Both the position numbers and the translations under genes were made by a program. From an uncultured Mediterraneibacter sp. (GTDB lineage: Bacteria; Bacillota; Clostridia; Lachnospirales; Lachnospiraceae): a stretch of 64,000 bases of DNA. This document shows positions 8,226 to 19,588 of the stretch, piece after piece; the first letter of the stretch is position 1, and every line of letters begins with the position of its first letter. The notes below the pieces were generated by a model that saw only the letters and a program-made list of their open reading frames with translations, was not told the DNA's origin and searched no databases. The stretch spans positions 18,309-82,308 of the forward strand of contig CALWFV010000009.1 of NCBI GenBank assembly GCA_944377745.1, read 5' to 3'.

Positions 8226-9548
8226 ATGAAATCCCTTGGAATCGACATCGGAACCACGACCATCAGTGCCGCAGTCATTGACCCGGTCACAAATACAGTC
8301 CTTACCACCCGCACCGTACTCAACGACAGCTTTATCTGGACAGACAAGTCCTGGGAAAAGATCCAGGATCCGGGGAAGATCTGCGTGAAGGTTTTTGGTC
8401 TTGCGGACGAGCTTCTGGATGAGTATGAGGAAATCCACAGGATTGGTCTGACAGGGCAGATGCACGGGATCGTGTATGTGGATCGCACGGGTGAGTGCAT
8501 CGGACCTCTGTATACCTGGCAGGATGAACGGGGAGCGATTCCCTGTTTCGATGGGAAAAGTATTTGTGAGATCCTTTCAGATACATATGGGATCCGGATT
8601 TATCCGGGATATGGTCTGGCAACGCATCTGTATAATCAGAAAGCAGGTCTGGTTCCGGAAAGGGCGGTGAAGATCTGTACGATCATGGATTATATCGGTA
8701 TGAAGATGACAGGAAGGAAAGAACCATTCATGCACAGCAGTAATGCGGCGTCGCTTGGCATGTTTGATGTATGCGAGAGAAGCTTTATGCGGGAAATTAT
8801 CCGGGATGAGGGGATTTGGGAGGAACTCCTTCCGGAAACTTCAGATGAATTTGCGTCGCTGGGCAGATACCGGGGGAGAACGGTCAGCCTGGCGATTGGT
8901 GACAATCAGGCTGGATTTCTGGGAGCAGTGGATGATATTGACCATGCAGTTCTTCTGAATATGGGAACAGGCGGACAGGTTTCTGTGTGCTCAGATATAT
9001 TTTTTGAAGGACATGGGATCGAGGCGAGACCATTTCTTCCGGGAAAATACCTGCTTGTGGGTGCATCTCTGTGCGGCGGGAGAGCCTATGCCATGCTGGA
9101 GCGCTTCTTCCGGCTTTATTGTGAAGCTGCCGGGATGAAAGAGGCAGATCACTATGCGGTGATGGAACGCCTGATGGATCAGAGAATGAAAGAAACGGTT
9201 CGGGAAAAGGGGCTCAGGGTGACGACCACTTTTTCGGGAACGAGGGAAGAACCCATGAAGCGGGGGAGAATCGAGGGGATCGATGTGGATAACCTCACTC
9301 CCGGAAATCTGATCTGTGGATTTCTTGACGGGATGGCGGAGGAACTTTACGGGATGTATAAGGGGATGGTGTGCGGCGTAGAACTGTCTGCAGAGACGCT
9401 GATCCTGTCGGGAAACGGATTTCGGAAAAACCGGCACCTCAAGCGGATCGCACAGGAAAGATTCGGGATGAAGGCGGTGCTGTCAAAGTGCTGCGAGGAG
9501 GCAGCCTGTGGGGCGGCCAGAAGTGCCGGGGCAGGAGAAACCGCGTGA
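8226..9548 (+). CDS. FGGY-family carbohydrate kinase (sedoheptulokinase-like)
   Basis: The protein is 440 residues. The N-terminal phosphate-1 motif GIDIGTTTISAAVID, the substrate-loop motif LTGQMHGIVY with LYTWQDERG, the second-domain GDNQAGFLGAV and LLNMGTGGQVSV, and the C-terminal adenosine motif LILSGNGFRKN mark an FGGY sugar kinase (ATP-dependent phosphorylation of a sugar or polyol). The GQMHG...TWQD combination resembles sedoheptulokinases more than xylulokinases, but substrate assignment from sequence is weak. The ribosome binding site GGAGGAG is excellent. It stands alone, with the IS110 element directly upstream, so its original promoter may have been separated from it. Confidence 0.85.
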   Translation: MKSLGIDIGTTTISAAVIDPVTNTVLTTRTVLNDSFIWTDKSWEKIQDPGKICVKVFGLADELLDEYEEIHRIGLTGQMHGIVYVDRTGECIGPLYTWQDERGAIPCFDGKSICEILSDTYGIRIYPGYGLATHLYNQKAGLVPERAVKICTIMDYIGMKMTGRKEPFMHSSNAASLGMFDVCERSFMREIIRDEGIWEELLPETSDEFASLGRYRGRTVSLAIGDNQAGFLGAVDDIDHAVLLNMGTGGQVSVCSDIFFEGHGIEARPFLPGKYLLVGASLCGGRAYAMLERFFRLYCEAAGMKEADHYAVMERLMDQRMKETVREKGLRVTTTFSGTREEPMKRGRIEGIDVDNLTPGNLICGFLDGMAEELYGMYKGMVCGVELSAETLILSGNGFRKNRHLKRIAQERFGMKAVLSKCCEEAACGAARSAGAGETA

Positions 9549-9591
9549 TACGGCGCCGATATTAAGATTTCGTAAAAATTAAATTTTTGAC

Positions 9592-9620
9592 TTGCTCATT
9601 TCATTTGATTGTTTTATACT
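9592..9620 (+). promoter_or_regulatory. Promoter of the HPr-like gene
   Basis: TTGCTC (9592-9597), a 17-nt spacer and TATACT (9615-9620) lie about 70 nt upstream of the gene. Confidence 0.6.
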
Positions 9621-9690
9621 ACGTTAGTGTGAGCCTGGGCGGGGAAGGATACAGACCGGGTTCATAAGGAAGCGGTACAGAGGAGTAAGG

Positions 9691-9960
9691 ATGACTGCTT
9701 TACACGGGAGGATCAGAGAGATGGTTGAGAAAAAAATCAAATTTGTGACGTCAGGTCAGTTGATGAGTTTTTGCAACACATGCCAGAAGATGAAGTCAGA
9801 TATTGATGTAACCGATATGGCAAACAGGAATTTCCGTATTGACGGAAAATCGCTCCTGGGACTGATGTCAATCAAGCTGGGGCTGCCGATGCGCCTTATC
9901 ATCAATGGAGAGGACGAAGAAATGGCACATCAGTATTTTACCAAATATGAGATGGAGTAG
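9691..9960 (+). CDS. HPr-like small protein without the phosphorylatable histidine
   Basis: The protein is 89 residues. The C-terminal half matches the HPr fold: FRIDGKSLLGLMSIKLGLP followed by a strand and GEDEE, as in PTS phosphocarriers. The active-site histidine region is replaced (SGQLMSFCNTCQKM: Cys but no His), so it cannot act as a classical phosphocarrier through His15. A second possible start is the ATG at 9721 with GGAGG in front, which gives the more usual HPr N terminus; the ATG at 9691 has AGGAG at good spacing. It is monocistronic, with its own promoter and terminator. A regulatory or degenerate HPr role is inferred only. Confidence 0.78.
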   Translation: MTALHGRIREMVEKKIKFVTSGQLMSFCNTCQKMKSDIDVTDMANRNFRIDGKSLLGLMSIKLGLPMRLIINGEDEEMAHQYFTKYEME

Positions 9961-10079: not shown

Positions 10080-11480
10080 TCAGAGCTGTCCTGCCGGGAT
10101 TTGCAGAGTGAACGTACATCCGCCGCCCTCGGTATCGCTGACGGAGAGGGGGATTTCCTGGACTTTAGCAAGGTCGGATGCGATGGAGAGGCCGAGTCCG
10201 AAATGCTCCTTGTCGCTGCGGGAGCCTTCCGCACGGTAAAAGCGGTCGAAGATCCGTTCTTTCTCCGCACTGCTCAGTCCGGGACCGTGATCTTCTACAC
10301 TGAGAAATATTGTGTTTTCGCTGTTTGCGGCTTTCAGGATGACCTTTCCGGCGTTCGTTCCGGCAGTTGCTGCGTTCGTTGTTTGCGGAGAGGTGAATCC
10401 GGGGACGGCTTCATCTGAGAGATTCTGCTGCGGACTATAAGCTGCCGTGTTGTCCTGCCGCAGGCCATAGGCAGCCGCATTGTCCAGCAGGATGGTCAGG
10501 ATCTGACGGCACAGATCCGGGTCTGCGTATGCGCGGGGGAGAGGTTCCTCCGGCAGCTCCAGGAGAAGGCGCCCGTTTCTCGAGTGGAAAAGAGGCTCGT
10601 AAAGCTCCAGAAGGTTCAGGAGGAGCTCATCGATCTCAAAGCAGGTCTTTTGAATGCTCAGAGTATGGCTGTCTGCGGAGGCGAGCAGGAGCAGACTTTT
10701 GATCAGGGAGCTTCCCCGCTGACATTCCTTCAGGATCGTGCGGATGAGTTTTCCGCTGTGTTCCGGTGACCTTGGAATGGCAGCGGCGCTGGCGCGGATG
10801 ACGGCCAGAGGAGAGCGCAGTTCGTGGGATGCGGCGGCGACAAATTCCTGTTGTCTGGCAAAACTTTCCTCCGCCGGCAGAAGGGCATGCCTTACAAAAC
10901 GTCGGCCGATCAGAAAGAGGAGCAGGATCCCGGCAGCGTCTACCAGGAGATAGAGAAGCCCGGCCATGAGAAGCCCTGTACGGGTTCCGGTCTCATCGAA
11001 AAGGAGGATCAGCTTTTTATATCCGTTTTCCTGCCGGGCGATCAGCACGGAGGCAAGGTAGGAATCATTATGCTCCCCTTTAATACGAAGGAGAGGGCTC
11101 ACCGTCATTTCTGAGGAGACCGGAGCGGCGGAGGTGTTGATCCCTTCCTTACGGGCGGCGGATTCGGCGCGGGAGGTGAGGGTGCTGCGGGAGGTGGGAG
11201 TGCCGTATGCCCCATCGAAGAAAAGGGGATGCCCGTTTTCTTCGATGGAGATGAGCAGATGGTTCTGCAGTTCCAGCCGGGCAAGCTCGGAGTCGGAAAA
11301 GGAAGAATCACTCTGGAGCCTGCTGCTCAGAGTGAACAGATGATTCTGGAAAGCGGCTTCCTGCTGCCGTGAGACGGAGGAGGCATAGAAGCAGAATGCG
11401 AGGACGAGCACCAGAGACAGGATCAGCCCGGTGCTAATAGTATAGACAAAGATCAGTTTTCTTCGAAGCTGTGTGAACAT
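10080..11480 (-). CDS. Membrane sensor histidine kinase
   Basis: The protein is about 466 residues and is the partner of the response regulator read just before it. It has an N-terminal membrane helix (about 9-32), a roughly 130-residue extracytoplasmic sensor, a second helix (about 168-192), the HisKA motif AASHELRSPLAVIRA (His about 219), an N box LTILLDNAAAYG, and the G boxes DHGPGLSSAEKERIFDRFYR and FGLGLSIAS. A loop rich in Ala, Thr, Asn and Gln between the N and G1 boxes is longer than usual. The start at 11480 is used because it lies 4 nt after the regulator's stop with GGAG inside that gene's end. The signal is unknown; the context suggests control of the divergent transport operon. 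Confidence 0.92.
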   Translation of the reverse strand: MFTQLRRKLIFVYTISTGLILSLVLVLAFCFYASSVSRQQEAAFQNHLFTLSSRLQSDSSFSDSELARLELQNHLLISIEENGHPLFFDGAYGTPTSRSTLTSRAESAARKEGINTSAAPVSSEMTVSPLLRIKGEHNDSYLASVLIARQENGYKKLILLFDETGTRTGLLMAGLLYLLVDAAGILLLFLIGRRFVRHALLPAEESFARQQEFVAAASHELRSPLAVIRASAAAIPRSPEHSGKLIRTILKECQRGSSLIKSLLLLASADSHTLSIQKTCFEIDELLLNLLELYEPLFHSRNGRLLLELPEEPLPRAYADPDLCRQILTILLDNAAAYGLRQDNTAAYSPQQNLSDEAVPGFTSPQTTNAATAGTNAGKVILKAANSENTIFLSVEDHGPGLSSAEKERIFDRFYRAEGSRSDKEHFGLGLSIASDLAKVQEIPLSVSDTEGGGCTFTLQIPAGQL

Positions 11481-11484
11481 GTTA

Positions 11485-12174
11485 TCACTCCATTCGGTAT
11501 CCGGTGCCGTGTACAGTTGAGATCTGTACACGGCTTTTCAGATTTCTCAGATGTTTGCGGCAGAAATAGATATAGGTATCCAGGTTGCCGTCCTCCACTG
11601 CGCCGTCCGGTCCCCAGACTCTTGTGAAGATCTGCTCCCGGTTCAGTGTCTTCTCCGGATTTCGGAGGAAAAACTCCATGAGCAGGGCTTCTCTCCTGGA
11701 GAGCTGGACCTGACCGTCAGGTCCGGAAGGCGGTGCAAGGAGCGAGAGAGTACGGGTATCTGCGTTCAGGGCGATATCTTTATAGAAAAGGGCAGCGTCC
11801 GTTTCCCGGTAAGAGCGGGGACGCCTTGTGAGAGCTCGGATCCGTGCCAGAAGCTCTTCTGTGTCATAGGGTTTTACCAGATAGTCGTCCGCCCCGGCGT
11901 CCAGCCCGTCAATCCGGTCGCTGACAGCGTCCAGCGCAGTAGTAAGGATAACGGGAGCAGAGATCGTGTTTTTCCTCAGAGAGCGGAGGATGGAGAGTCC
12001 GTCAATCTCCGGCAGCATTCGGTCCAGAAGGATCAGGTCATAGGAATCCTTCATTGCGCAGTAGAGCGCCTCGGTCCCGGTATGGCAGCAGTCGACGGTA
12101 TAACTGCTTGCGGTAAGCTGCAGGCTCAGCGCCTGGCACAGCTCACGGTCGTCTTCTATAATTAATATATGCAT
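11485..12174 (-). CDS. OmpR-family response regulator
   Basis: The protein is 229 residues. The receiver domain has an acidic pocket (EDD at 7-9), the phospho-acceptor Asp about 51 in LLDRMLPEIDG, the Thr in TTALDA and the Lys in VKPYDTEELLARI. The C-terminal winged-helix domain contains LSRREALLMEFFLRNPEKTLNREQ and ends STVHGTGYRME. It is co-transcribed with the histidine kinase at 10080 and divergent from the solute-binding protein operon. The long palindrome in the shared intergenic region is a likely binding site. Confidence 0.94.
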   Translation of the reverse strand: MHILIIEDDRELCQALSLQLTASSYTVDCCHTGTEALYCAMKDSYDLILLDRMLPEIDGLSILRSLRKNTISAPVILTTALDAVSDRIDGLDAGADDYLVKPYDTEELLARIRALTRRPRSYRETDAALFYKDIALNADTRTLSLLAPPSGPDGQVQLSRREALLMEFFLRNPEKTLNREQIFTRVWGPDGAVEDGNLDTYIYFCRKHLRNLKSRVQISTVHGTGYRME

Positions 12175-12200
12175 AATATATTACCTCCAGCAGAAACAGT

Positions 12201-12274
12201 ATACCAGACAAATCTCAAAGAAATCTTTAAAAATCTGTGTCTGTCTTAAAAGATTTTTTGAGATTTGTCCGGTA
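12201..12274. promoter_or_regulatory. Long interrupted palindrome in the divergent promoter region
   Basis: The left arm runs from ATACC at 12201 through GACAAATCTCAAA to an AAATCTTT block. The right arm (12248-12274) is its reverse complement with one mismatch and one extra base. The 20-nt centre is 12228-12247. TATA-type -10 elements lie at or just outside both arms (TATAGT at 12272 on plus, the mirror on minus). It is probably the operator through which the two-component system controls both transcripts. Confidence 0.65.
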
Positions 12275-12316
12275 TAGTTATAACACAGAAAATGATGAAG
12301 GAGGTTTTGACATAGT

Positions 12317-14548
12317 ATGAAGAAGATAACAGCAATGATCCTGGCGGGAGTGCTCGCCGCGGGAATGGTCTCGGGATGCAGTTCCGGGACGGAAGGAGAG
12401 GGCGGCGCCTCCTCCGGAAAAGGAAGATATGTGGAGGAAGACTTGGAACTTCCTCTCGCTGATACGGAACAGGCGATAAACTTCACAAGATCCGGGGAAG
12501 GAAATCCTCTGCTTTTCGCGAGCGACGGCACCCAGGTCGTCCGGTATGAATACCGGGAGGGAAAATGGGAGAGGACGGAGCTTATATGGACAAGGAGCCT
12601 GGTGACAGGGGATGCAGTTACCTTTGAAGACGCTGAGGAGACGGCAGACGGGATGCAGTATATCATGACGGTGGACAACGATACGATGCAGTGTACTCTT
12701 TTCCGGCAGGCGGCGGATCAGGCGGAAGCCGGCGAGGGAGAGAAAGTAGAACTCTCTTATCTGGAGACGGAAGCGGCGTACGGATATCCGCTCGTGTATG
12801 ACATAGCGGTGGATCCCTCCGGAAATTACTGGCTGATGGATCTGATGCAGGGAATGGTCCTGGCAGTGGATGGAGAGACGGATGAAACGCTTCTGGAGGT
12901 CCCGGCTGAGTTAAGCCTCGTTTCATCCCAATCCCAGAAGATGCTGTTTCAGAGAGAAGACGGAAAGATCGCCTTTGCCACGGGAGAGGGAGAGTACACG
13001 ATCTATGACAGCGCGTCTATGGAAGAGGTGGGAAGCCTGAATACAGACTGTTCTACTGAAAACGGATATGCTCTGGCAGCGGTCGGGGAGGACTGGTATC
13101 AGATCTCTTCGGACGGCATCAGCAGGATGCAGGATGGAAATGATATCGAAGAGATCATCATGGACGGGAACAGCGGTGCTATGGGCTCGCCGCTCAATAC
13201 AGTCAACGGCATGGTTCCGATGGGAGACGGGGAGTTCCTTGCGCTTTATTCGCAGACAGACAGCGGGGCATACAGCCTGGAGCATTATGTATATGACGAG
13301 GATGTGCCTTCTGTCCCGGAACAGACCCTCACCGTGTTCGGACTGACCAAAAGCGATACCGTACAGCAGGCGATCACTCAGTTCCAGAAGGCGAACCCGG
13401 ACGTGCAGGTAGAGTTCAGTTCTCTTGGCAAAGCCGGAAATGAAGTGACAACGGAGGATATCCGGACACTGAACACGGAACTGCTGAGCGGGAACGGCGC
13501 GGACGTTCTTCTGCTGGACGGGCTCCCGGCGGATTCTTACATAGAAAAAGGAATGCTTGAGGACCTGACAAATCTTTACGGCGAAATCGCGGATTCGGCA
13601 GATTATCTGGAAACCATCATGGAGAACACAGTACAGAGCGACGGAAAGATCTACGGGCTGCCGGTAAAGTTCAGTGTGCCCCTCATGTTTGGAAACCAGG
13701 ATACGGAGCATGCCCTTGATAGTCTTGACAGCCTGACCGCGTATCTTGAGAAGAATCCGGATGCGGATATCTTCGGCCCTGCAAAGAGCAGCTATATCCG
13801 TGACATGCTCTTTATCCTCTATCAGGATGAGGTCATGGGAGAGGACGGAAAGATCGATACACAGGCACTGGAAAAACTGCTCCTGACAGTGGAGAAGATT
13901 GCGGAAAACTCCGGAGAAGAGGGGGACGTCTCCTATCTGGCGGAAGACAGTGTGGGACTGGTTTCCCCGTTTGCGGCAAATGAAGACGGGCTGGATGTGA
14001 TGAGCAATGCGGATGCGGTGGGGACCACGGATGTGGGAAGCCTGTCATCCATGATGGTTCCTTATGCGGTGATGAGGCAGGCAGGACTGGAGCCGGAGAC
14101 AGTACGGAACATGTACCATCCTCTGGGGACCGTGGGAATCAACAGTGCCTCCGGACAAAAGGAACTGGCGGAGGAGTTTGTGAAATATCTGTTTTCGGAT
14201 GAGATACAGTCAGCGGCACTGATTGACGGATTTCCGGTCCTTCTGTCCGCACTGGACGGAAAGGTACAGGAGGCGGCTGCGGCTTCCGGGAACTTTGCGG
14301 CTTCGGTAGCGGTGTCGGGAGAGGACGGCATAGATATGGAACTGGTCGCTTCCTATCCGGAGGAAGAAGAAGTGCGCGCGTTTACGGAACTGTGCCGGAC
14401 TCTGGATACACCGATGGAACAGAACCGGATCGTGTGGAACATCTATCAGGAAGAGGCAGACAGTTTTATGGAAGGAAGCGCAGGAGCTGATGAGGCAGCG
14501 AAAAATATCGCACAGAAGGTGGATACTTATCTGGCGGAACAGGAATAA
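12317..14548 (+). CDS. Two-part lipoprotein: propeller-like N-terminal region plus ABC solute-binding domain
   Basis: The protein is 743 residues, far longer than a usual sugar-binding protein (about 400-450). The signal peptide ends in the lipobox VSGC (Cys 21), so it is a surface lipoprotein. Residues about 40-330 show repeated beta blades with a DPSGNYWL / EDGKIAFA / GDGEFLAL pattern, as in beta-propellers. Residues about 335-740 are an extracellular solute-binding domain, family 1 (LTVFGLTKSDTVQQAITQFQKANPDVQVEF, NGADVLLLDGLP, DGKIYGLPVKF). AAGGAGG precedes the ATG at slightly long spacing. It is the first gene of the operon divergent from the two-component system. The ligand is unknown. 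Confidence 0.85.
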   Translation: MKKITAMILAGVLAAGMVSGCSSGTEGEGGASSGKGRYVEEDLELPLADTEQAINFTRSGEGNPLLFASDGTQVVRYEYREGKWERTELIWTRSLVTGDAVTFEDAEETADGMQYIMTVDNDTMQCTLFRQAADQAEAGEGEKVELSYLETEAAYGYPLVYDIAVDPSGNYWLMDLMQGMVLAVDGETDETLLEVPAELSLVSSQSQKMLFQREDGKIAFATGEGEYTIYDSASMEEVGSLNTDCSTENGYALAAVGEDWYQISSDGISRMQDGNDIEEIIMDGNSGAMGSPLNTVNGMVPMGDGEFLALYSQTDSGAYSLEHYVYDEDVPSVPEQTLTVFGLTKSDTVQQAITQFQKANPDVQVEFSSLGKAGNEVTTEDIRTLNTELLSGNGADVLLLDGLPADSYIEKGMLEDLTNLYGEIADSADYLETIMENTVQSDGKIYGLPVKFSVPLMFGNQDTEHALDSLDSLTAYLEKNPDADIFGPAKSSYIRDMLFILYQDEVMGEDGKIDTQALEKLLLTVEKIAENSGEEGDVSYLAEDSVGLVSPFAANEDGLDVMSNADAVGTTDVGSLSSMMVPYAVMRQAGLEPETVRNMYHPLGTVGINSASGQKELAEEFVKYLFSDEIQSAALIDGFPVLLSALDGKVQEAAAASGNFAASVAVSGEDGIDMELVASYPEEEEVRAFTELCRTLDTPMEQNRIVWNIYQEEADSFMEGSAGADEAAKNIAQKVDTYLAEQE

Positions 14549-15467
14549 AAAACAGTGGAAGGGACTTCTGTTCCTGATCCCCAGCCTTCTGGGAACGGGC
14601 GGGTTTGTCTTCCTGCCCTTCCTGGATGTGATCCGTCGCTCTTTTTTCCGGGCGTCGGGAACCGGGTTCGTGGGACTGGCAAACTATGAGGCGGTGCTTG
14701 GAAACGAGGCGTTTTGCATGGCGGTTAAGAATACGGCGAGGTTCCTGTGTATCTGTCTGCCTCTGCTCCTCGGACTGTCCCTTCTGACAGCAGTGCTGGC
14801 CGGGCAGGTACTCAGGGTGAGCGGGCTGCTAAAGAGCGGCTTCCTCATCCCCATGGCAGTCCCGGCAGCGTCAGCGGTGGTGTTCTTCCGGCTCATGTTT
14901 GACAAAAACGGCTGGGTGAACGGGGCACTTCAGGCATTTGGCATGGAAGGACAAGACTGGCTCAATTCAGAAAATGCCTTTGCAGTATTGATAGCATGCT
15001 ATGTATGGAAGAATCTTGGATATGATATGGTACTCTGGATGGCGGGACTCTCTTCCATTCCGAAGGAGCAGTATGAGGCGGCGAGAGTCCAGGGGGCAGG
15101 GGAGCTGCAGTGTTTCCTTTACATTACCCTGCCGCAGCTCAAAGAGACTGCCTTTGTGACGGCGCTCCTGTCCTTTGTCAACGGGTTCCGCGTGTTCCGG
15201 GAGGCCTATCTGATCGCGGGAGATTACCCTCATGAGAGCATCTATATGCTGCAGCACCTGTTCAACAACTGGTTCACAAACCTTGATATTCAGAAAATGA
15301 CGGCGGCCGCTGTCATGCTTGTCATAGTCACGGGAGGCGTATTGCTTGGAAACGATATCTGTACGGAACATTTCAGGAGACGGGAAGAGGGGACAGAGGA
15401 GTCCGGAAAAAGGAGAGAAGCGGGAAGAAAAGCAAAAAGAAAAAGAGCAGAGATCACGAAAGGTTAG
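14490..15467 (+). CDS. ABC transporter permease, MalF-like
   Basis: The protein is 325 residues. Six membrane segments can be followed, starting GLLFLIPSLLGTGGFVFLPF. The cytoplasmic loop carries the EAA motif EQYEAARVQGAGELQCFLYITLP, which docks an ATPase. The only canonical start in frame is the ATG at 14490, overlapping the preceding gene by 59 nt with GGAG close in front. The hydrophobic core starts about residue 24, so a shorter form cannot be excluded. The C terminus is a long basic/acidic tail (about 40 residues), unusual for MalF-type permeases. It pairs with the permease at 15475. Confidence 0.88.
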   Translation: MRQRKISHRRWILIWRNRNKKQWKGLLFLIPSLLGTGGFVFLPFLDVIRRSFFRASGTGFVGLANYEAVLGNEAFCMAVKNTARFLCICLPLLLGLSLLTAVLAGQVLRVSGLLKSGFLIPMAVPAASAVVFFRLMFDKNGWVNGALQAFGMEGQDWLNSENAFAVLIACYVWKNLGYDMVLWMAGLSSIPKEQYEAARVQGAGELQCFLYITLPQLKETAFVTALLSFVNGFRVFREAYLIAGDYPHESIYMLQHLFNNWFTNLDIQKMTAAAVMLVIVTGGVLLGNDICTEHFRRREEGTEESGKRREAGRKAKRKRAEITKG

Positions 15468-15474
15468 GGCGGAG

Positions 15475-16305
15475 ATGCTGGTGAGAACTGTGGTCACGGT
15501 GTTGCTGGTCCTGATGGTATTTCCGCTTTTTGTTCTCGTGACGGACTCATTTCTGGGAAGCCGGGAGATCCTGGAACGGTTCGGACCGGTCCTGGCAGGG
15601 ACGGAAGGGCAGGCGGAGTTTGTGCTGTTCCCGCAGTATCCGACACTGAGAGCCTATGTACAGCTTCTTCTGGACTCCCCGGAATTTTTTACCGCGTTCT
15701 GGAATTCGGTGTTTCAGACCGGAATGATCCTTGCAGGTCAGCTCATTGTGGCGGTCCCGGGAGCCTGGGCCTTCGCCAGATACCGGTTCCCGGGAAGAAG
15801 GGCGATGTGGTTTCTCTATATGCTGCTCATGATCCTTCCCTTTCAGGTCACCATGGTGTCGGGATATTTCGTGCTCAGCGCGGTCCATCTGATGGACACC
15901 CACTGGGCGGTCATCCTTCCGGGAATCTTTTCTACCCTTCCTGTCTTTATACTGAAAAAGACATTTTCCGCGATTCCGCGGGAGATCCTGGAAGCGGCGG
16001 AGGTGGACGGCGCAGGGGAACTGAGGATCTTTCTTCTTATCGGTATCCCTCTCGGAAGATCAGGAATCTTTTCCATAATGATCCTGGGATTTCTGGAATA
16101 CTGGAACGCCATTGAACAGCCGATGACATTTTTAAGGACAGAGTCGCTGATGCCCCTTTCTCTCTATCTGCCGGATATCTCGACGTCGGATGCCGCAGTG
16201 TCGTTCGCGGCGTCCATTGTCATGCTCCTTCCGGCTCTGCTGCTCTTTTTCTTCGGGCAGGAGTATCTGGAGCAGGGGATCGCGGCGTCCGGGATCAAAG
16301 AGTAA
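15475..16305 (+). CDS. ABC transporter permease, MalG-like
   Basis: The protein is 276 residues, normal for this family. It has an N-terminal helix (VVTVLLVLMVFPLFVLV), a periplasmic loop, the region GAWAFARYRFPGRRAMWFLY, and the EAA motif REILEAAEVDGAGELRIF. A longer reading frame from 15346 exists, but ATG 15475 lies 8 nt after the stop of the previous permease and starts directly before the first helix. GTG 15481 with GGAG at better spacing is an alternative. Together with the MalF-like partner it would form an importer channel, but no ATPase gene follows. Its 3' end is duplicated just downstream. Confidence 0.88.
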   Translation: MLVRTVVTVLLVLMVFPLFVLVTDSFLGSREILERFGPVLAGTEGQAEFVLFPQYPTLRAYVQLLLDSPEFFTAFWNSVFQTGMILAGQLIVAVPGAWAFARYRFPGRRAMWFLYMLLMILPFQVTMVSGYFVLSAVHLMDTHWAVILPGIFSTLPVFILKKTFSAIPREILEAAEVDGAGELRIFLLIGIPLGRSGIFSIMILGFLEYWNAIEQPMTFLRTESLMPLSLYLPDISTSDAAVSFAASIVMLLPALLLFFFGQEYLEQGIAASGIKE

Positions 16306-16350
16306 AAACCGGCAGGGAACCGCGGTGTCCGGGATCAAAGAGTAAAAAAA
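16271..16350 (+). repeat. 40-bp tandem duplication at the permease 3' end
   Basis: Bases 16271-16310 and 16311-16350 are near-identical copies. Both contain GTCCGGGATCAAAGAGTAAA, so the last codons and stop of the permease gene are repeated directly downstream as non-coding sequence. Confidence 0.8.
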
Positions 16351-16367
16351 CAGGAGGAAAAAGCAGG

Positions 16368-17879
16368 ATGACCAGAAGAGAATACCGGAAAAAGAAGGCG
16401 GGAAAAGAGAAAAAGTGGTTTCAGAAAAAGACGGCGTTGAAGGTCTTTGGGGGATTCTTTGCGCTGATGGCGGCGTGTACTGTGCTCTCGAGAGCGGCCG
16501 CCTCTGTCCTGGTCGCCCAGGTTGAGGTGGAAAGTCCCACAGGGGGAACAGTCACCAGTACGTTTGAGGGGCAGGGAGAGGTTGTACCGTCTGATGAAAA
16601 ACAGGTCTTCCTCTGGGCAGAGCAGCAGGTGGAGAAAAGCGCGGCTCCGGGGACTGCAGTGAAGAAGGGGGACTGTCTTGTCCAGTTCCGGATGGAATAT
16701 CTGGAGAAGAGCATTGATGAAAAGAACTCTGAGATCGATCAGCTGAAGCTTCAACTGGAGCAGCAGGAGGTGGCGGCCAGGGGAAGCAGCTATGTCTCTT
16801 CCGCGGACAGTGCGGCGAGGACGCTGGATTTGGCAAAAGCTCAGCTTGATGCGGCGTCGGAGAAAGCGGATCAGGCACAGGCTGCATATGACAGCTATGC
16901 AGGAGAAAGTGAGGAAGAAGAAAACGAGGAGGAAAGGCAGGCGCTTGAAGAGGCACTGCAGGCAGCGCAAAACGAGCGGGACGCAGCGGCTCAGGCTGTG
17001 GACGAAGCCCAGAATGCATATGAGGATGCGGCGGCACAGGACGCAGCACAGGAAGCGAATAATGCCAGCGCCATGGAGTCGGCACGCCTTGCCGGGGAAG
17101 AGATCCAGGTCCAGATCGATGATGCTCAGAAGGAACTGGACGTGCTGGAGGAATATCAGGCAGCGGAGGGAAGACTCTGCGCGGAGGAGGACTGCGTGGT
17201 GCTGGAAAACAGTGTGGCTGACGGGAATGTCACCACCGGGGCGGAAGTGATCGTCACGGGAAGCGGAGAATGGCTTTTGCGGGGGAGTCTTGATGAAGAC
17301 AGCCGGAAGAGGATCCGGGAAGGCGGAAAGGCTTCGGTCAGCATGGATTCCGGAGAGAGAGCCCTGGACGTAGAGATCCGCTCTGTGGATACAGGAGAAG
17401 GCAGCGGGAATACAGGAGGAAGTACCAGCGGGAATGCCGGGGGAAACAACGCGGCAGAAAGCGGAGGCTCGGAAAGTGGAAGCTCGAGCAGTGGAAATTC
17501 AGGAAGCAGTGGCAGCGGGACAGGTGGAGGCCCTGCCGGTTCCGCCGGCGTCTGGTATGCACCGGTGCCGGAGGGGACGGAGGTAAGCTATGGGGATACA
17601 TTTACGTGGAAAGTACAGGTCCCGTCAGAACAGAACTACGACTGCAAGATTCCTCTCACGGCGCTCCGGGAGGACAGTCAGGGAAATTACTGTCTGATCG
17701 TGAGCGAGGAATCCTCGGCGCTGGGAACGGTCCAGAAGGCGGAGCGGGTTCCTGTCACTGTGCTGGAGAAGAACAGTGAGGAGGCCGCGGTGGATTCGGT
17801 CCTGGAGAAGACAGACCAGGTGATCGTGGGATCGGAAAAATATGTGGAAGAAGGTGACCAGATACGAATAAAAGGATAA
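16368..17879 (+). CDS. HlyD-like membrane fusion protein
   Basis: The protein is 503 residues. It has a basic N terminus and one membrane helix (about 25-48), a lipoyl-like half (VEKSAAPGTAVKKGDCLVQF, about 84-103), a long coiled coil rich in Ala/Glu/Gln (about 108-265), the second lipoyl/barrel half (CVVLENSVADGNVTTG; WLLRGSLDEDSRKRI), then a Gly/Ser linker (about 345-395) and a C-terminal beta domain. This is the architecture of membrane fusion proteins used by export systems such as MacAB and HlyBD. Its AGGAGG site is good. In an operon with import-type permeases it is unexpected. It is the likely partner of the MacB-like protein that follows. Confidence 0.85.
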   Translation: MTRREYRKKKAGKEKKWFQKKTALKVFGGFFALMAACTVLSRAAASVLVAQVEVESPTGGTVTSTFEGQGEVVPSDEKQVFLWAEQQVEKSAAPGTAVKKGDCLVQFRMEYLEKSIDEKNSEIDQLKLQLEQQEVAARGSSYVSSADSAARTLDLAKAQLDAASEKADQAQAAYDSYAGESEEEENEEERQALEEALQAAQNERDAAAQAVDEAQNAYEDAAAQDAAQEANNASAMESARLAGEEIQVQIDDAQKELDVLEEYQAAEGRLCAEEDCVVLENSVADGNVTTGAEVIVTGSGEWLLRGSLDEDSRKRIREGGKASVSMDSGERALDVEIRSVDTGEGSGNTGGSTSGNAGGNNAAESGGSESGSSSSGNSGSSGSGTGGGPAGSAGVWYAPVPEGTEVSYGDTFTWKVQVPSEQNYDCKIPLTALREDSQGNYCLIVSEESSALGTVQKAERVPVTVLEKNSEEAAVDSVLEKTDQVIVGSEKYVEEGDQIRIKG

Positions 17880-17932
17880 AATATGCGGGAATCGGACTGG
17901 GCGCGGGCATCCTTGCCCTGGCTGCGGCAGCA

Positions 17933-18811
17933 GTGATCTCCTGGCTGATCTGGCTTCACGGGTTTTCAGATTATCTCTCGGTCACTTTTGAAGAGCCCTC
18001 TGCTACATATGAAGGATTCCGGAATTTTCAAGAGAGCAGTGACGCAGAGAAATTTACCTCGGCTGCATTGTGGAATAAGGTGGGAGAAAGAGAACTGATC
18101 CTGGAAAGCACAGAACGGAGGAGCCGGGCGTCGGTCTATGGGATGAGAGGGCAGCTTCAGGCTGTGTTCGGGAATACGCTGGCAGCAGGGCGGTATTTTG
18201 CGGACGGAGAGGAAGCGGTATGCCTTATCGACGAGAAAACTGCGAGGGAACTGTTCGGAAGCCGGGATGTGACAGGGCGTGAAGTTCTTCTTGACGGAGA
18301 AAAAATACAGGTTGTGGGAATCCTGCAGGGGAACCGTGGCGTCTGCGTGATCCCTGCAGGGGAGGATGAAATGTTCTGCGGCGTTACTGTGAGGAAACAG
18401 AAGGCGGAACAGTCCTCGGATACGGCGGTATCACTGATCGGCTCATATATGCAGGGGACGGCGGAACGTATCGCGGACGGTCAGCTTTACTATATCCTTG
18501 CTCTTTTGAAGACGGCGGGGATCCTGACAGCGGCCACGGTCATTCCGGCGGTCCTGCTGATCATGGTGAAGGAGAGAAGGCTGGCAGGAGCGGCAGTCCT
18601 TGCCGCGGGAGTTCTTATCCTCGCGGTCATTACTGTACAGATCCCGGTAGGGAGTGATTACCTTCCTACATACTGGTCGGATTTTGATTTTTTCGGAGAA
18701 CTGCAGGAGGAGAAGGCGGGGCAGATTGAAAGCTTAAAGGCGCACCAGGAGTTCTGGCATGAGGAGGGATTCCTGAGAGTGAAGGCGGTGGACTGGACGG
18801 AAGTGTTTTAG
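17933..18811 (+). CDS. MacB-like periplasmic core domain membrane protein (start unclear)
   Basis: The product is 292 residues from the first canonical codon (GTG 17933), but this cuts into a hydrophobic helix. The same frame is open from 17858 and encodes NKRIKYAGIGLGAGILALAA, a natural basic N terminus plus helix, with no ATG, GTG or TTG. So either a non-standard start (ACG 17864 has AAGGTGA at good spacing) or loss of the start codon is likely. The middle part resembles the MacB periplasmic core (AAGRYFADGEEAVCLID, ELFGSRDVTGREVLLDG, VVGILQGNRG). Two C-terminal helices follow, instead of the three of a full MacB permease. It closely follows the fusion-protein gene. Confidence 0.65.
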   Translation: MISWLIWLHGFSDYLSVTFEEPSATYEGFRNFQESSDAEKFTSAALWNKVGERELILESTERRSRASVYGMRGQLQAVFGNTLAAGRYFADGEEAVCLIDEKTARELFGSRDVTGREVLLDGEKIQVVGILQGNRGVCVIPAGEDEMFCGVTVRKQKAEQSSDTAVSLIGSYMQGTAERIADGQLYYILALLKTAGILTAATVIPAVLLIMVKERRLAGAAVLAAGVLILAVITVQIPVGSDYLPTYWSDFDFFGELQEEKAGQIESLKAHQEFWHEEGFLRVKAVDWTEVF

Positions 18812-18921: not shown

Positions 18922-19203
18922 ATGACGATAGAACAGATATTGGAAGAGATTGTCAGGCTTTGTCAGAATCATTCGGCATCAGAGGTAATCCTGTTCGGTT
19001 CAAGGGCAAAGGGAACGTACAGGGAGCGAAGTGATATTGATATTGCCGTTGCAGGAGCCTCTGAGTTTGAAGGTCTGAGGGAGGAAATCGAAAGTCTTCC
19101 CACTCTGTACACGGTTGACCTTGTAAATCTGGACGAATGTAATAATCAGATGCTTTTGGAGGATATTGAAAGGTATGGACGAGAAATTTATAAAGCGATA
19201 TAG
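18922..19203 (+). CDS. MNT-domain nucleotidyltransferase (antitoxin of a HEPN/MNT pair)
   Basis: The protein is 93 residues and shows the complete minimal nucleotidyltransferase signature GSX10DXD (Gly26-Ser27 to Asp38 and Asp40, in LFGSRAKGTYRERSDIDIAV). In characterised HEPN/MNT (type VII) systems, such proteins neutralise the HEPN toxin by transferring AMP to a tyrosine. GGGGTG precedes the ATG. The gene overlaps the following HEPN gene by about 29 nt, as is usual for these pairs. A function in DNA or RNA metabolism outside toxin-antitoxin activity is possible but less likely with this partner. Confidence 0.88.
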   Translation: MTIEQILEEIVRLCQNHSASEVILFGSRAKGTYRERSDIDIAVAGASEFEGLREEIESLPTLYTVDLVNLDECNNQMLLEDIERYGREIYKAI

Positions 19204-19588
19204 ATCTTTCTGCAATTCTCTTGATTCTCTTGCAGAGGCGAAAGAGCGGGATATGAATGATTCCTTTGTCCTGAGTGGAACAAGCGCAAAATTCAGCACA
19301 ACCTTTGATCTTGCGTGGAAAGTGATGAAAGACATACTGGTGCAGCACTATGCCATATCCGGGTTCGTGGCGGGATCGCCCCGGGAGGTACTCCGGGAAG
19401 CGTTCAAGGCGGAGATGATCAGCGGGGATGTGTGGATGGAGATGCTGAAGATCAGAAATCAGCTTGCACACGACTATGATGGAGAGATTGTGAAGAAATA
19501 TTGCGTAAAGATCACGGATGTATATATTGACAAATTCTATGAATTCAGAAAAAGAACGGAGGAAGTGATCCCATCGGTGAAGGGATGA
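19175..19588 (+). CDS. HEPN-domain protein (HI0074-type; toxin partner of MNT)
   Basis: The protein is 137 residues, all helical in appearance. The RNase-type motif RX4HXY is intact: Arg94, His99 and Tyr101 in RNQLAHDYDG. In type VII systems the Arg/His pair is needed for RNA cleavage and the Tyr is the adenylylation site. The start at 19175 (MDEKF) matches the family; a TTG at 19166 is nearer to GGAGG. It overlaps the MNT gene, which indicates coupled expression. The proteins are also annotated as nucleotidyltransferase substrate-binding proteins. Toxic activity is inferred from the motif. Confidence 0.87.
   Translation: MDEKFIKRYRSFCNSLDSLAEAKERDMNDSFVLSGTSAKFSTTFDLAWKVMKDILVQHYAISGFVAGSPREVLREAFKAEMISGDVWMEMLKIRNQLAHDYDGEIVKKYCVKITDVYIDKFYEFRKRTEEVIPSVKG

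Follow-up and report, generated by a model that had tools for sequence, protein, structure and literature searches.

A 64,000-nucleotide stretch of DNA from an uncultured Mediterraneibacter sp. (contig CALWFV010000009.1; the whole stretch analyzed is called the window here) carries a run of five genes that encode a solute-binding protein (SBP), a MalF-like and a MalG-like permease, a membrane-fusion-type protein (MFP) and a protein with a MacB periplasmic core domain, which we call G5. A preliminary description of this DNA, made from its letters and open reading frames (ORFs), presented the set as a hybrid of importer and exporter. We find that it is better read as an importer combined with an exporter-derived scaffold. 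From comparison of sequences and gene neighborhoods, we put slightly better than even confidence in the module being a dedicated CUT1-like importer of Clostridia with a MacA/MacB-derived outer scaffold and a regulator of its own. The gene content and its conservation, the missing MacB coupling parts, a MalK-type ATPase in some loci, a stand-alone multitask-type ATPase in the window's genome and the operator are computed results; assembly into a complex, the role as a scaffold, the direction of transport and activation by the regulator are inferred.

Gene content and conservation of the module

The order SBP, MalF, MalG, MFP, G5 across window positions 12317-18811 and the coordinates of the five genes were verified as first described:

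12317..14548, + strand: gene 1, SBP, a lipoprotein with an N-terminal propeller-like domain followed by a solute-binding domain
14490..15467, + strand: gene 2, MalF-like permease, EAA loop YEAARVQGAGELQCFLYITLPQ
15475..16305, + strand: gene 3, MalG-like permease, EAA loop LEAAEVDGAGELRIFLLIGIPLG
16368..17879, + strand: gene 4, MFP, a membrane-fusion-type (HlyD/MacA-like) protein
17876..18811, + strand: gene 5, G5, a MacB periplasmic-core-domain protein with three transmembrane (TM) helices, no FtsX domain and a YLPTYWSDFDFF motif after TM3

Pfam matches on the window proteins were SBP_bac_8/SBP_bac_1, BPD_transp_1 twice and MacB_PCD. No ATP-binding cassette (ABC) ATPase adjoins the five-gene set in the window, in agreement with the preliminary description. 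The window MalF protein is 100% identical to that of a Candidatus Mediterraneibacter norfolkensis record (L018).

To anchor loci on the importer side, the best 80 of 575 relatives from a MalF alignment search were taken. Among the 71 of these with at least 3.8 kb of downstream sequence, 70 carry both MFP and G5 in the module; the sole exception is L096, where no G5 was detectable after MFP. The exact window order was found in 44 of the 80. Regions anchored on G5 were picked by hand, 34 from a search of the order and four from searches of the class and phylum, after exclusion of weak matches of short length, which are probably ordinary MacB proteins, and of the window's own genome, G010 and G025. 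MalF, MalG, MFP and G5 are all present in 36 of these 38 regions, and in 32 of 34 once the four that repeat MalF-anchored loci are removed. L015 also repeats L066. The two exceptions are L175, without a called MalF, and L191, which is cut by the contig start. In eight loci (L063, L071, L074, L077, L080, L091, L198 and L199, of which L074 and L080 share near-identical DNA) MFP-G5 precedes MalF-MalG, and in five of the eight an ATPase gene follows; gene content is thus kept though gene order is not. The proposal that the five genes form one unit is therefore borne out by a conserved neighborhood, seen from either anchor.

The genome searches scored about five candidates per genome, so the prevalences that follow are lower bounds. 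Within the order, 34 of 393 genomes have a G5 match of at least 50 bits, a count that includes the window's own genome and two genomes used to build the profile. Matches above 200 bits were obtained in four of 393 genomes of the class and two of 398 of the phylum, with the own genome in each. Weaker matches in G129, G180 and G050 also proved to be modules once fetched. Many Clostridia have the module, among them entries under the titles Blautia, Hungatella and Coprococcus.

We also asked if the last two genes always sit beside a full MacB system, and they do not. MacB-type exporter genes lie near only six of the 80 MalF-anchored loci (L032, L053, L054, L081, L083 and L085), where they are upstream of the module and upstream of the kinase gene described below, with a MacB-type ATPase visible in four (L032, L053 as a cut piece, L083 and L085). 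Mirror-tree correlations between the module's proteins were all high (0.74-0.94 over 49 loci, SBP-MFP highest), a result that is inseparable from shared ancestry.

The proteins of the module and their probable ATPase

G5 matches MacB_PCD at 50.4 bits (cutoff 27), and its AlphaFold2 model, with a mean predicted local distance difference test score (pLDDT) of 88.7, consists of TM1, an outside domain at about residues 33-201, TM2 and TM3. Its fold matches are the extracytoplasmic domains of YknZ, MacB and LolE, the best being YknZ (5f9q). A review describes MacB as a four-helix protein whose core domain is inserted between TM1 and TM2 and whose TM2 and TM3 have a coupling helix between them (PMC5985334). 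Window G5 shares the core domain between TM1 and TM2 but has three helices instead of four, lacks the coupling helix and FtsX domain of the MacB family and, whereas that family has a cognate MacB-type ATPase, none adjoins the window set. The FtsX domain was matched in 0 of 54 G5 proteins and MacB_PCD in 31 of the 54. A coupling-helix pattern written for this analysis was found in 0 of 113 G5 rows (108 distinct), compared with four of four ordinary MacB-type permeases from the same loci. Without FtsX domain and coupling-helix motif, the export-type half formed by G5 and MFP is probably an unpowered scaffold, and we do not retain the earlier view that the last two genes belong to an exporter.

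The preliminary description had G5 lacking one helix, which is true for the window's clade: hydropathy gives three helices in window G5, and no helix follows the WSDF motif in the window, L018, L012 or L013. Across the 77 G5 proteins scanned for helices the motif was located in 60, of which 48 have at least one helix after it and 12 have none. In its general form, W[SAT]D[FYW], the motif occurs in 89 of 113 G5 rows (85 of 108 distinct), and the predicted topology puts it outside the membrane, after TM3. G5 is under purifying selection (omega 0.19-0.29, compared with 0.03-0.12 for MalF). The gene has no ATG start, reading ATA at 17876 where G010 has ATG; L018 and G007 also have ATA. Over the first 19 codons (17876-17935) we counted 13.2 synonymous (17.2 sites) and 7.8 nonsynonymous (39.8 sites) differences to G007, and 10.7 (16.3 sites) and 12.3 (40.7 sites) to G010. 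This pattern makes the stretch look translated, and the G5 start probably lies upstream of the GTG at 17933.

No HlyD-type Pfam family matches the window MFP itself, which scores 38.9 bits against NCBIfam RND_mfp, below the cutoff of 94.9. HlyD_3 is matched in 19 and Biotin_lipoyl_2 in 17 of 35 members among its relatives, and it is mainly through these relatives that the protein would be recognized as an MFP.

On the import side, EAA loops could be read in both window permeases, and a relaxed EAA pattern fits 102 of 123 MalF rows (117 distinct) and 108 of 122 MalG rows (116 distinct), the pooled rows including repeats. The MalF ORF start overlaps gene 1 and the true start may lie further in; the longest MalG ORF opens at 15346, and the ATG at 15475 was used as its start.

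The lipoprotein had been described as a propeller plus a binding domain. The binding domain stands, with SBP_bac_1 matched by 43 of 43 family members, and the second half of the window protein has CbpC of Clostridium thermocellum (7x0o), a sugar-binding protein, as its best match in both sequence profile and fold; CbpC covers only this second half of the window profile. The top SBP matches (CbpC, Lmo0181 and RafE) are sugar or oligosaccharide binders. The N-terminal part is likely a propeller, with moderate support: the model (pLDDT 86.1) has 25 strands at residues 35-342 ahead of the solute-binding fold, and at profile level this part matches designed propellers and WD40 propellers, though many of these matches contain no individual stretch that passes. 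Against this, Pfam propeller families each match only one of 43 members, and the 50 Foldseek matches listed for the model, headed by CbpC, are all binding proteins or fusions of these. The SBP gene itself varies among relatives, being split into two frames at L012 6772-8816 (G007), possibly by a frameshift or assembly error, and present as a tandem pair in L037, L075, L198 and L199.

We next considered which ATPase could drive the permeases. An ABC frame of 370-389 aa directly follows MalG or G5 in six of the 80 loci (L071, L074, L077, L080, L084 and L091). Three of the six were scanned by Pfam, with ABC_tran and TOBE_2 in all and OB_MalK in two, and by these domains the three are classed as MalK/MsmX type and not MacB type. 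The best match to the L074 ATPase in the window genome, 63% identical over residues 9-242, is a stand-alone MsmX-type gene cut by a contig end; by eye, its apparent other end lies at the end of another contig, and no permease gene was seen in either fetched flank. This ATPase has D77, R104, E110 and K154, residues reported for multitask ATPases (PMC7658222). All four residues are also present in the operon-linked ATPases of L071 and L077, and two in those of L074, L080, L091 and L084. Two ATPases of the window genome served as controls: L130, which lies beside sugar genes that presumably include a glycosidase, has one of the residues, and the unrelated-looking L132 has two. The suggestion that the module borrows its ATPase is likely to be right, given the MalK-type genes in six of 80 loci and the stand-alone gene in the genome, and the motor is probably a MalK/MsmX-type ATPase encoded elsewhere.

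Two-component system, operator and flanking genes

Upstream of the five genes, the divergent two-component system of the preliminary description is real, with a kinase and an OmpR-type regulator recognized by Pfam. The features of this region are as follows:

10080..11531, - strand: sensor histidine kinase (HisKA, HATPase_c; no HAMP match), start probably slightly inside the ORF
11485..12174, - strand: OmpR-family response regulator
12198..12203, - strand: -10-like box TATACT, putatively of the regulator-kinase operon, read from the sequence
12210..12230, + strand: operator half, tandem 11-bp repeat AAATCTCAAAGAAATCTTTAA
12246..12266, - strand: inverted operator half, 15 nt from the first, three mismatches to the pattern
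12273..12278, + strand: -10-like box TATAGT, putatively of the five-gene operon, read from the sequence

The inverted operator half overlaps the -35 region of the five-gene operon's putative promoter. Among the 63 loci with at least 5.5 kb of upstream sequence, 48 have the kinase as well as the regulator no more than 7 kb away, four have one of them and 11 have neither, in a count that used the window proteins as seeds and can miss distant ones; the regulator is on the opposite strand in 42. The two-component system is a usual but not an obligatory neighbor of the module.

The operator is conserved as well. A matrix trained on nine close loci was tested on 30 held-out intergenic regions. It recovered the forward site in 17 of them (p<=0.02), and in 16 the forward and the reverse site together (p<=0.05). 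In ten of the 30, the top matches on the two strands have the window's spacing of exactly 15 nt, although in some of these ten the match on one strand is weak, and the held-out set includes loci that are close to each other. A looser pattern fits 26 of the 30 regions against 1.4 in shuffles; it was chosen after the held-out sites had been seen, which makes the matrix test the cleaner one. In the window genome the exact site occurs once, with six further matches, each of three mismatches (one being the module's second half), against one match for the reversed control. Together with the two neighboring genes, the conserved operator upholds the tie between operon and two-component system that had been proposed.

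Other genes flank the locus. Directly 3′ of the operon, at 18922-19588, lies a nucleotidyltransferase and NTase-substrate-binding pair, which we take to be MNT/HEPN-like and possibly a toxin-antitoxin system; its first gene is PDC-S09 in PADLOC. Upstream of the kinase gene, 8226-9960 holds a sugar kinase ORF, presumably FGGY-like, and an HPr-like protein (PTS-HPr by Pfam). An anti-phage role for the module was rejected, since PADLOC matched none of the five proteins at E 0.001. A phage origin was rejected too: G5 had no match in phages, and the one IMG/VR contig with the module (L098) carries it whole, with the two-component system, and is probably host DNA. One plasmid match was found, L203, in the unannotated and plasmid-labelled Subdoligranulum variabile record OY725868.1, with a MalF 52% identical.

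Proposed mechanism, alternatives and known systems

We propose that the propeller-type lipoprotein would capture a substrate outside the cell and that the MalF/MalG-like pair would carry it across the membrane, presumably inward, driven by a MalK/MsmX-type ATPase encoded elsewhere or, in a few relatives, in the same operon. MFP and G5 would make up a MacA- and MacB-derived extracytoplasmic scaffold that lacks its own ATPase; its probable role is to dock the lipoprotein or to lead the substrate across the cell wall toward the importer. The divergent kinase and regulator may switch on both themselves and the operon via the paired operator that lies between the two putative promoters. From the SBP family and the ATPase type, an oligosaccharide-like ligand is favored.

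Several observations weigh against this proposal. Given L096, G5 may be dispensable. The strict EAA pattern fits only 91 of 123 MalF and 74 of 122 MalG rows. Besides the stand-alone gene, the window genome encodes one or more further CUT1-type ATPases (L130), and its ATPase-like matches number 109 overall; the multitask residues do not single out the system, since L074, L080, L091, L084 and L132 have two each. No glycosidase was seen among the 25 families listed of 120 for 66 operon-flanking proteins (chosen from 181 of 150-800 aa; the commonest family is in three proteins), an unusual picture for the surroundings of a sugar importer. In L065 and L086 the module directly adjoins a C39-peptidase ABC exporter, which hints at peptides; the exporter frames (L065 386-2608 and L086 5537-7735) end 9 bp before the MalF frame and 11 bp before the SBP frame, respectively.

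These exporters also speak for a different role, in which the import half still dominates, taking up or removing peptides or other antimicrobials, and the MFP/G5 scaffold holds the compound off the membrane, much as the MacB review suggests for YknXYZ (PMC5985334). We regard this role as unlikely. In its favor are the C39-peptidase exporter as the next upstream frame in the two loci named, the small ABC ATPase with neighboring membrane-protein frames upstream in L062 and L068, and the MacB-type exporter genes upstream in six of 80 loci. Peptide-resistance modules, moreover, typically have an ABC system controlled by an OmpR-type two-component system. Neighbors of these kinds are, however, limited to ten of the 80 MalF-anchored loci, the top SBP matches are sugar or oligosaccharide binders, and the three scanned operon-linked ATPases have MalK-type C-terminal domains. 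It is similarly improbable, in our estimate, that the five proteins are a sensory complex which binds an extracellular signal and passes it to the kinase, with transport minor or absent. The frequent kinase and regulator (48 of 63 loci, 42 with the regulator on the opposite strand), the single exact operator in the genome and the correlation of kinase and SBP pairwise distances (r 0.90 over 49 loci), which shared ancestry alone can give, would fit such a complex. Against it, 11 of the 63 loci have neither partner matched nearby and four have only one, most permeases keep EAA loops, the kinase appears by eye to have its own extracytoplasmic segment, and the MalK-type ATPase of some operons would be needless for a pure sensor.

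The fold of G5 and its MFP-like neighbor could also suggest that these two are a separate exporter which shares the operon and borrows a MacB-type ATPase. We consider this very unlikely given the counts for the FtsX domain (0 of 54) and coupling motif (0 of 113), the missing fourth helix in window G5 and the presence of an importer permease gene beside MFP-G5 in all 38 G5 regions except L191, at a contig start. On the same two absences, an export half with a hidden MacB ATPase was rejected. An accidental grouping of unrelated genes is hardly credible, the set being conserved across families and orders and its content surviving changes of order; no observation in favor of such a grouping was found. 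A CUT1-like importer with a MacA/MacB-derived scaffold is the explanation that we prefer. We propose more tentatively, with less than even confidence, that it represents a new importer class, in which a CUT1-type importer sits on a MacA/MacB-derived extracytoplasmic assembly that has lost its ATPase, the envelope-spanning adaptor of export being turned inward for large substrates, with a two-component system dedicated to it.

ABC importers and ABC exporters are commonly regarded as distinct lineages, each with accessory parts of its own. If our proposal is correct, cells that lack an outer membrane can employ such an adaptor assembly for import or for sensing, and module genes that go under names such as "efflux adaptor" or "ABC permease" in other records may be misnamed. 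The single exact operator in the genome makes the regulon directly testable. We found no description of the module in the titles and abstract starts of the open-access papers listed by our searches, subscription papers being mostly outside the search, and passages of an R. gnavus paper do not mention it; the module looks like a real transport system needing description.

Known systems resemble it in part. BceRS-BceAB, a type of module for peptide sensing and detoxification, likewise places an OmpR-type two-component system beside an ABC system with a MacB-superfamily-like protein, whereas the module is importer-type with an SBP, has no FtsX domain and no adjoining ATPase, and G5 matches BceAB weakly in Foldseek (E 1.2e-3 and worse). 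With YknWXYZ/MacAB, the type VII ABC systems, the module shares an MFP-type partner and the MacB-like core domain, but it has no ATPase partner and carries the WSDF-type motif after TM3. With CUT1 (MalFGK-type) systems served by a multitask MsmX-type ATPase it shares an SBP_bac_1/8 lipoprotein, two BPD_transp_1 permeases with EAA loops and, in some loci although not in the window operon, a MalK-type ATPase. A GGP loop pattern is found in 0 of 37 module MalF proteins, compared with two of six other MalF-like frames, and a QHLFNNW-type loop distinguishes 25 of the 37. The module further departs from CUT1 systems in its extra propeller-like SBP domain, its constant MFP and G5, and its OmpR-type regulation.

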